The notes beneath the pieces are model-generated. The model had not been told where the DNA came from, made no database searches, and was given only the letters and a program-made list of their open reading frames with translations. A DNA stretch of 64,000 bases, from contig CM057165.1 of the NCBI GenBank assembly GCA_029962745.1, positions 3,626,340 to 3,690,339 of the forward strand, given 5' to 3'. This document shows, piece by piece, positions 21,090 to 22,990 of this stretch. The stretch comes from Echinometra lucunter. Lineage: Eukaryota > Echinodermata > Echinoidea > Camarodonta > Echinometridae. The position numbers were made by a program, and so were the translations under genes. How positions within the stretch are numbered: the stretch's first letter is position 1; each line of letters opens with the position of its first letter.

Positions 21090-21280
21090 GCCTGTAACGA
21101 GTTCACAACACATGTCATGAACCTTCTCCGCGAACAGAGCAGGACGCGACCCATCGCCCCCAAGGAGATCGAACGCATGGTCAGCATCATCCACCGCAAG
21201 TTCAATGCCATCCAGGTTCAACTGAAGCAGAGTACCTGTGAGGCTGTCATGATCCTACGCTCACGGTTCTTGGATGCCAG
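21090..21280 (+). CDS. pbx: Pbx, second exon in window (PBC-B)
   Basis: Encodes [20 protein letters not shown], then [18 protein letters not shown] and [20 protein letters not shown]. This is the highly conserved PBC-B block that leads to the homeodomain. The acceptor is CCCAAGCAG|G and the donor GCCAG|GTAAG. The exon ends in phase 2, and the split codon AG|G (Arg) is the first of the arginines that open the homeodomain. If the donor is not used, the frame reads AGG TAA and stops at once, removing the homeodomain. The last 50 bp and the donor are copied three more times downstream. Confidence 0.97.
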
Positions 21281-21845
21281 GTAAGATCCTATCCTTTTTT
21301 ATTCCAGAATGTCTGAGTTCAGGGTTGTGAGTTCTGAATAACCCAAGTGGAACTCGCTGGCTCAGTGGGGAGCCACTGAGGAGGCCTTGATGACTCAAGT
21401 TGAGCACCTGTGAGGCTGTCATGATCACGGTTCTTGGATCTTCCATGTGATTCCAGAATGTTAGGGTTCAGGGTTCTGAGTTTTGAAGAACTAGTGGAAC
21501 TCAGTGTCTCATTAATGTGGTTGTCTTTGAAATGGGAGCCCCTCAAGTAGAGCACCTGTGAGGCTGTCATGATCCTACGCTCATGGTTCTTGGACGCCAG
21601 GTAAGATCTTCCATATGATTCCGGAATGTCAGGGTTCAGGGTTCTGAGTTCTGAATAACTGGAGTGCAACTCTTTGGCTCAGGTGGGAGCCACTGAGGAG
21701 GCCTTCATGACTCAAGCAGAGCATTTGTGAGGCTGTCATGATCTTACCCTCACGGTTCTTGGACGCCAGGTAAGATCTCCTACATGAGTTCCAGAATGTC
21801 GGGGATCAGGGTTCTGAGTTCTGAAGAACTAGTGGAACTCTGTGT
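21231..21845 (+). repeat. Four-copy tandem array of an exon end plus splice donor
   Basis: The last 50 bp of the Pbx exon ending at 21280, its donor and about 110 bp of intron recur in tandem. Units begin at about 21231 (authentic), 21403, 21551 and 21720, with spacings of 172, 148 and 169 bp. Copy 2 has lost CCTACGCTC and its donor. Copies 3 (donor at 21601) and 4 (donor at 21770) keep GACGCCAG|GTAAGATCT and an open exonic reading with one or two changes each (SRF to SWF in copy 3; T to I and R to P in copy 4). Intronic parts share CCAGAATGT, AGGGTTCAGGGTTCTGAG and AGCCACTGAGGAGGCCTT. Confidence 0.92.
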
Positions 21846-22480
21846 TCACATACATGTATGATGCGGTAAACCATGCCACTCATCGTAATGAGACATGCAT
21901 GAATGCGCTAACGCAAAATAAAAAAGAATTTTGTCAAAAGTTGCGTAGACAAATTTGTGATGTCATATTTTTAAAAAATCTTTATAAGACTTTGATTGGT
22001 CTACATCTTTTTGCCGCCAGGGGGCACAAAATTTGCCTCTTGCCTAGTGGTCCCCCCCCCTTCATATCCCATTCATTTTTTCTAAATAACAAAAAAAAAA
22101 AAACATGGGGGATTACCATGAGGGTTTCTGCTTCATATCTACCAGGGTTCAGAGCTCTTACTATACTCAGCTTGCCCATGTTGTGTTTTGTAAATGGCTC
22201 AGTGGAAGACCTTCATGATTCATTTGATATACCTGGAATCCAGGTAAGAACACATAAACACCTGTTTACTAATCCCTTGTAAAGGATACAAGAACATCAC
22301 AAAGCACTGATAAATAACAAATTGCGGGTGCTTTATAGAGTTCACATCTACAGCAGTAGTACTGTAGTACAATGCTTTTAAAAGAAAAAGTGGGGGTTTT
22401 GCATTAATAATGCTGAATTTTTATGTCTTGCAACATAGTTTTTCTATATTCAAAGAAATATTCAAATTTCCTTCATAAGA
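21842..22480 (+). other. Intron interior between the two duplicated arrays
   Basis: AT-rich intronic DNA with a C-run and an A-run near 22050-22100. No gene or clear repeat family was recognised here. Confidence 0.7.
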
Positions 22481-22990
22481 TAAATATGACATGTCTTTGA
22501 TAATGTCATTACATTTGTTTTCTTCTGTTACCTCAGCACCTAGAAACATAGTATTAGGCGCGTTATGATTGTCTCTATTTTCATTTTCTTTGCAGGAGAA
22601 AACGAAGGAATCTCTTCTAGCAAGCAACTGAGATTTTTCACCAAATTTTTATGATTTGTTCTATATTAAATAAGAGCAACATTGTTAAAACCTCATAAGA
22701 TAAACATAATTCAACTTTACTAACCTCATTACATTTGTTTCTTCTGTTACCTCATTGTCTTTGCAGGAGAAAATGAAGGAATTTCAGGAAGCAAGCAATG
22801 GAGTTCTTCCAACAAGTTTTTAAAATTTCTTCTTTATCAAAAAAACCCCTTAACATTTTTAACATTTCTTTGATAAGAAACATACTTTACTTCACTAACC
22901 TCATTACATTTGTTTTCTTCTGTTTTCTTTGCAGGAGAAAACGAAGGAATTTCAGCAAGCAAGCAACAGAGATCCTCAACGAGTACTTCT
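22480..22990 (+). repeat. Three-copy tandem array of splice acceptor plus exon start
   Basis: A unit containing CATTACATTTGTTTTCTTCT, CTTTGCAG and GAGAAAACGAAGGAATTTCA is present three times. The acceptor AGs end at 22595, 22766 and 22934, so spacings are 171 and 168 bp. Only the third leads to the full homeodomain exon. Using the first gives RRKRRNLF and a stop; using the second gives RRK and a stop. The array overlaps the authentic exon starting at 22935. Confidence 0.92.

Follow-up and report, generated by a model that had tools for sequence, protein, structure and literature searches.

One intron of a sea urchin Pbx gene carries tandem copies of both of its borders, namely the upstream exon end with its donor on the left and the acceptor with the downstream exon start on the right. 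The copied splice sites look perfect and are probably unused. The arrays are best explained, with good though not complete confidence, by a recurrent tandem duplication which proceeds in steps of about 140-205 bp, sometimes strikes exon borders and is tolerated there. Similar border copies in two other genes of the genome make an ordinary, recurring event seem likelier than a device peculiar to Pbx.

The Pbx intron and its copied borders

The window is the whole 64-kb stretch of DNA that was analysed, and the features described here lie on its plus strand. It contains at least six Pbx exons, located by tblastn with two urchin Pbx proteins as queries. The gene is identified as Pbx by PBC and homeodomain domain matches, and the best named match of its translation (within the best 120 of 3055 matches) is Strongylocentrotus purpuratus Pbx, with 98% identity and 93% query coverage. 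The true upstream exon (21090-21280, 191 nt) encodes the end of the PBC domain (PBC E 3.1e-31; tblastn with urchin Pbx), terminates in LDAR and is followed by a donor GT at 21281. The true downstream exon (22935-23071, 137 nt) encodes the homeodomain start (Homeodomain and Homeobox_KN matches; tblastn), and the intron between the two exons, 21281-22934, is 1654 nt long. The acceptor of the 191-nt exon, AAGCAG at 21084-21089, is a tandem NAGNAG; an extra Q occurs at this junction in the urchin Pbx record P0002 and not in P0001, a difference compatible with the use of both AGs. Downstream, a tRNA-like sequence at 23268-23340 (Rfam tRNA, 39.8 bits; ARAGORN without a call) is probably the leading part of a SINE derived from a tRNA.

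In the left array (21221-21857) the upstream exon end and the intron start stand four times in tandem; a copy comprises about 60 nt from the exon and about 110 nt from the intron. By self-alignment the copies start at 21221, 21393, 21542 and 21711, at steps of 172, 149 and 169. The copy alignment identifies the first of them, L1 (21221-21392), as the real 60-nt exon end with the true donor and the intron start. In L2 (21393-21541) a deletion of 12 nt has taken away the donor, and a further 8 nt are missing nearby. L3 (21542-21710) has a decoy donor, CAG/GTAAGA (the slash marks the splice point), with its GT at 21601. L4 (21711-21857, end approximate) has a decoy donor GT at 21770 and is truncated by an insert. 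The GT donors at 21281, 21601 and 21770 all read CAG/GTAAGAT. The exon copies are free of coding constraint, as seen in an in-frame TAG in L3 and in replacement changes in L4 (alignment, read by eye). L1 resembles L3 and L2 resembles L4, both in a shared indel and in best matches; following an initial doubling, two units were probably copied together as a block.

The insert which breaks the left array (21846-22140, bounds approximate) is a dispersed repeat recognised by searching its own genome. This search gave 1717 first-look candidates, of which 40 were scored; 39 of the 40 lie elsewhere, at 70-84% identity, and the scored relatives mostly match about the first 200 of the 306 query bases. 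Beyond the insert follows L5 (22141-22290), a decayed further left copy found through the repeat families D6, D7 and D8 and by alignment, in which CAG/GTAAGA is intact at 22241-22249 with its GT at 22244. Four intact CAG/GTAAGA donors are thus present at the intron (21281, 21601, 21770 and 22244). The sequence CAGGTAAGA occurs five times on the plus strand of the 64-kb window, four times at the Pbx intron. The left unit is locus-specific, as all three of its genome matches fall at this intron.

The right array (about 22440-22980) holds three copies of the acceptor with about 45 nt of exon start. The acceptors precede 22596, 22767 and, at the true site, 22935, and all read TTTGCAG/GAGAAAA. Ra (22439-22640) has the decoy acceptor before 22596, a pyrimidine region lengthened by an insert of about 40-50 nt, and an in-frame TAG in the exon-start copy; upstream, its homology begins at about 22439, with 22439-22535 aligning to 22656-22754 at 74% in the self-alignment. 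Rb (22656-22811) has the decoy acceptor before 22767 and an in-frame TGA after RRK, and Rc (22856-22980) is shown by the copy alignment to hold the true acceptor and exon start. In a 294-kb sample of the same genome, the right unit has no match beyond the window.

The original prediction, made from the letters of the sequence, had held that both intron ends are tandemly multiplied. Self-alignment confirms this with E values of 1.6e-74 and 2.3e-72 for the left array and 2.8e-45 for the right one, and a chance origin of the similarity is excluded. The three predicted copies of acceptor and exon start, at spacings of 171 and 168, are present in the alignment. The four predicted exon-end copies exist as well, but not each with its donor: L2 lacks one, and L5 beyond the insert has one. 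Outside the splice cores the copies are 68-95% identical by aligned segment (5-32% divergence). The short donor and acceptor cores are 94-100% identical between copies, and past the end of the right-unit homology identity is 48-78%. The copies are adjacent, head to tail and in the same orientation, as in local tandem duplication, and the duplicated segments cross the exon border. As originally noted, the left and right units show no similarity (best E 0.24 between them), and a common origin of the two was rejected on that ground.

Tandem arrays elsewhere and the duplication process

We infer that local tandem duplication at the DNA level copied both borders of the Pbx intron, mostly in steps of about 140-205 bp. 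The first duplication at each border would have produced an inner copy of the exon edge and its splice site. Later duplications would have multiplied these inner copies, on the left probably by a two-unit block, and slippage or unequal exchange at the already doubled sequence may have driven this later growth. The inner copies, now intronic, would have shed coding constraint and would be decaying, apparently as neutral sequence. Since the duplication spans the exon edge and the outermost copy stays joined to the intact exon, the protein is unchanged.

The frequency of such arrays was assessed in a survey of 230 kb (L006-L028), which comprises a 10-kb locus at one fixed position on each of 20 contigs and 30 kb beside the window; together with the 64-kb window, 294 kb were scanned. 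L001-L005, which are copies of window sequence, were excluded from the scan, and L006 shares 340 bases with the window. The count omits two arrays with units of about 30 bp (L027; L028 at 4379), harmonic rows of one array and the arrays of the window itself, and an array in L033, with an offset of 229, stands outside it. The 22 survey arrays thus counted are distributed by offset as one below 120 bp, 12 at 120-210 bp, four at 210-400 bp and five above 400 bp. The class of 120-210 bp is the commonest (12 of 22), in a small survey in which L023 alone supplies four of the 12. Ten of these 12 arrays have no other match in the sample, and five of the 22 lie within 15 bp of 171. Simulated two-copy duplications (25 per point) were recovered in 28-80% of cases at 80-100 bp, in 84-92% at 120-140 bp and in 100% from 160 bp. 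Because recovery is 84-100% from 120 bp upward, the fewness of arrays above 210 bp is real and not a detection effect; the fewness of short offsets is partly technical.

L026 carries a satellite of nearly 9 kb at 1218-10000, with a period of about 295 bp and repeats about 87-89% alike. A five-copy 200-bp array at L008 4140-5143 has no other matches in the sample. L023 (C15:3000001-3010000) has four arrays in 10 kb of a single gene, among them a five-copy array at 1116-1919, with a unit of 154-161 bp, between exons.

That a single mechanism acted at both ends, as originally proposed, gains some support from the 12 of 22 arrays at 120-210 bp, and the step size may be a property of the process itself. 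Because these offsets are the commonest in the survey, two arrays with steps of about 170 bp at one intron need no special cause. The arrays of 120-210 bp take up 2.65% of the surveyed sequence, and random placement would hit both edges of a given intron with a probability of about 7e-4. The introns of such a genome number on the order of 1e5; random placement would be expected to leave dozens to a hundred introns with both edges copied, and Pbx appears as a single instance of a process that recurs. The steps of 140-205 bp recall the size of a chromatosome or an Okazaki fragment, and a nucleosome-like step is possible, but the nucleosome repeats of sea urchins exceed 170 bp.

Three or more of the 12 arrays at 120-210 bp coincide with exon edges, arranged as in Pbx, and they belong to two other genes. 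The gene in L023 is presumably EVI5-like, judging by motif order beside its TBC matches. Here, on the minus strand, the exon end KKSKQLK/GTAAGG has four further copies in the next intron, at spacings of 222, 178, 191 and 160; these donor-edge copies read GTGATA, GTAAGG, GTGAGA and TTAAGG, the donor of the last being lost. In this array (L023 5954-6883), as in that of the window at 21221-21857, the best matches are two units apart, as if two-unit blocks had been duplicated in both. In the same locus the acceptor of a TBC-domain exon is doubled together with about 100 nt, at 145 bp and 87% identity. The TBC Pfam match (E 7e-8) came from the upstream decoy copy (L023 260-442), whereas the real exon, judged by reading frame, is the downstream copy, in which the domain carries on. 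The third case, in L011, is an exon end, GAG/GTAAGA, repeated 174 bp downstream at 91% identity, with the copy frameshifted. We take this gene to be amino-acid-kinase-like, partly from protein motifs; its AA_kinase Pfam match (E 0.0093) is below Pfam's cut-off. In all three cases the outer copy may be read as the one joined to the continuing exon, as in Pbx.

These cases raise the question of whether exon edges are preferred targets, for example if chromatin or replication made a unit of one chromatosome or Okazaki fragment prone to re-copying. The three or more edge arrays among 12 would agree with such a preference, as would the edge copies found in two of about seven Pfam exons against 0.37 expected (P 0.054), but the latter statistic is borderline and post hoc, and its exon count was made by judgement. 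It was drawn from 508 frames out of 3235, 434 of them outside the window; after removal of 19 frames from the L026 satellite, 415 of the 434 were Pfam-scanned (sets of 150, 150 and 115). The seven exons, assigned to multi-exon genes, are HTH_65, NAT, AA_kinase, BRCT, two TBC and Ldl_recept_a, and the count omits reverse transcriptase, matches that are weak or of low complexity, and 7tm receptors, which were taken as intronless. The frame that gave the match is identified for AA_kinase and for the two TBC exons. Ten extra frames, most of them over other arrays, yielded nine without a match and one TBC exon (L023 4112-4480). Against the preference, one of the two edge hits, in TBC, was found through the frame of a decoy copy and the other, AA_kinase, falls short of the Pfam cut-off; the arrays cluster in L023, and the other nine were not seen to touch an exon, exon detection being incomplete. 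A preference for exon edges is thus possible but unlikely. Equally doubtful is the broader proposition that replication- or chromatin-linked re-copying, in steps of about one chromatosome or Okazaki fragment and with a preference for exon edges, shapes sea urchin genomes; numerous genes would then carry identical competing splice sites whose silence would reveal exon definition.

The agreement of about 170 bp at both ends may also be coincidental, the product of unrelated accidents in a genome with no favoured step. The left and right units share no sequence, and with five of 22 survey arrays within 15 bp of 171 such a match is not rare. However, 12 of the 22 arrays fall at 120-210 bp although longer offsets are detected equally well or better, and a mere coincidence is given a rather small chance.

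Splicing and selection at the copied sites

Every donor was joined in silico to every acceptor. Stops are met in 11 of the 12 combinations, and only the joining of 21281 with 22935 remains open. With decoy pairs the stops fall just past LDAR, RRK or RRKRRNLF, that is, before or within the first homeodomain residues. A decoy donor on the left would extend its exon to 511, 680 or 1154 nt, and a decoy acceptor on the right would extend its exon to 305 or 476 nt. No GTRAG motif occurs between 22244 and 23100, so that none follows the decoy acceptors up to 23100; the scoring covered donors of the consensus form and the acceptors of the right array. Coding alternative exons, either cassette or mutually exclusive, were rejected on account of the stops in 11 of 12 combinations and the lack of a consensus donor past the decoy acceptors. 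A pairing of the docking/selector type between the two arrays was also considered, and no inverted match was found in 20700-23700 at E 1e-3.

In exon definition, splice sites are paired across the exon. The outer pair of sites would win because exon definition favours the short true exons of 191 and 137 nt, and the inner decoys are, to judge from this arrangement, probably ignored by the spliceosome. Since the left decoys read AG/GT, the segment between decoy donors starts with GT and ends with AG. A left segment retained through decoy use could in principle be spliced out as an intron, a self-repair like that seen with dual-specific sites (PMC10809524). However, the pyrimidine tracts before these AGs are weak: the pyrimidine fraction from -20 to -5 is 0.50-0.56 at the four AG/GT sites, whereas the three right-array acceptors reach 0.81-0.94.

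A selected decoy function, which the original prediction had offered as an option, would have the inner sites maintained as decoy or poison sites, whose occasional use would yield a Pbx without homeodomain or lead to nonsense-mediated decay and so tune the dose of Pbx. The stop that ends every decoy choice would suit such a role, as would the four CAG/GTAAGA donors and three TTTGCAG/GAGAAAA acceptors that are still intact. Clustered conservation was scanned for on the copy alignments in windows of 30, 40 and 50 columns, with p values uncorrected for multiple tests; the Ra insertion was excised beforehand, which biases toward conservation. On the right, acceptor cores outdo their flanks at 50 columns both in Ra-Rb, the sole right decoy-decoy pair (p 0.007), and in Ra-Rc (p 0.001; 0.005 at 40 columns and 0.016 by longest run), and Rb-Rc gives p 0.05-0.11. 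On the left, L1-L2 (p 0.0375, 30 columns) and L1-L4 (p 0.029, 50 columns) are nominally low.

However, the value for Ra-Rb rises to 0.10 at 40 and 0.28 at 30 columns, and Ra-Rc, L1-L2 and L1-L4, like Rb-Rc, each contain a real site, which is constrained. The left decoy-decoy pairs L2-L3, L2-L4 and L3-L4 show no clustered conservation (p 0.14-0.61 over the three window sizes). Moreover, the L2 donor is lost, one EVI5-like decoy has TT instead of GT, and the same exon-edge geometry occurs in other genes. The signal of selection on the decoys thus appears absent for donors and weak for acceptors, and maintenance as decoy or poison sites is improbable; the better preservation of the Ra-Rb decoy acceptors, at 50 columns only, stands as a counterpoint to a neutral reading. 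A false duplication of single copies in the assembly, which would have undone the original prediction, is very hard to credit, because the copies, at 68-95% identity by segment, are too diverged for a mis-assembled single copy, their decoys carry private deletions and stops, and a dispersed repeat has been inserted within the left array.

Comparison with known systems

To probe the choice made by the spliceosome, competing splice-site copies are usually constructed artificially. The Pbx intron, in a gene that regulates development, offers natural competing sites with identical cores at both of its ends, and two or more other genes show copies of a single edge. Should such copied splice sites prove common, they would be a ready test of exon definition. 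Among the literature matches listed, mostly the best 12-15, no paper deals with multiplied exon edges in echinoderms.

Minisatellite-like local arrays consist of diverged head-to-tail copies at a single locus. The Pbx arrays share these features and differ in that their unit includes an exon border and a splice site. The ratchet points of recursive splicing are juxtaposed AG/GT sites within an intron. The left sites of Pbx are likewise AG/GT inside an intron; they differ in the evident duplication origin, in an intron of only 1654 nt and in the want of a good pyrimidine tract, which is missing at all four AG/GT sites (0.50-0.56).

Human UBC has an array of dual-specific AG/GT splice sites in coding monomer units, with read support (PMC10809524). 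The left copies of Pbx are similar in having AG/GT at unit spacing (21281, 21601, 21770 and 22244, with one unit lacking it). They are unlike UBC in that the units are mostly intronic, the pyrimidine tracts are weak, the right side reads AG/GA and a dual use of the sites is hypothetical (PMC10809524).

In the potato RdRp gene, one duplication across an intron-exon border gave rise to a new, RNA-supported intron and exon (PMC4974935). Pbx departs from potato in its several copies, at both ends, with stops in the inner copies and no new exon evident. It agrees with potato in a direct duplication that takes in the 3′ part of an intron together with the beginning of the exon that follows, whereby the acceptor, the pyrimidine tract and the exon start are all copied (PMC4974935). 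The copied borders of Pbx show splice sites multiplying without harm to the protein.
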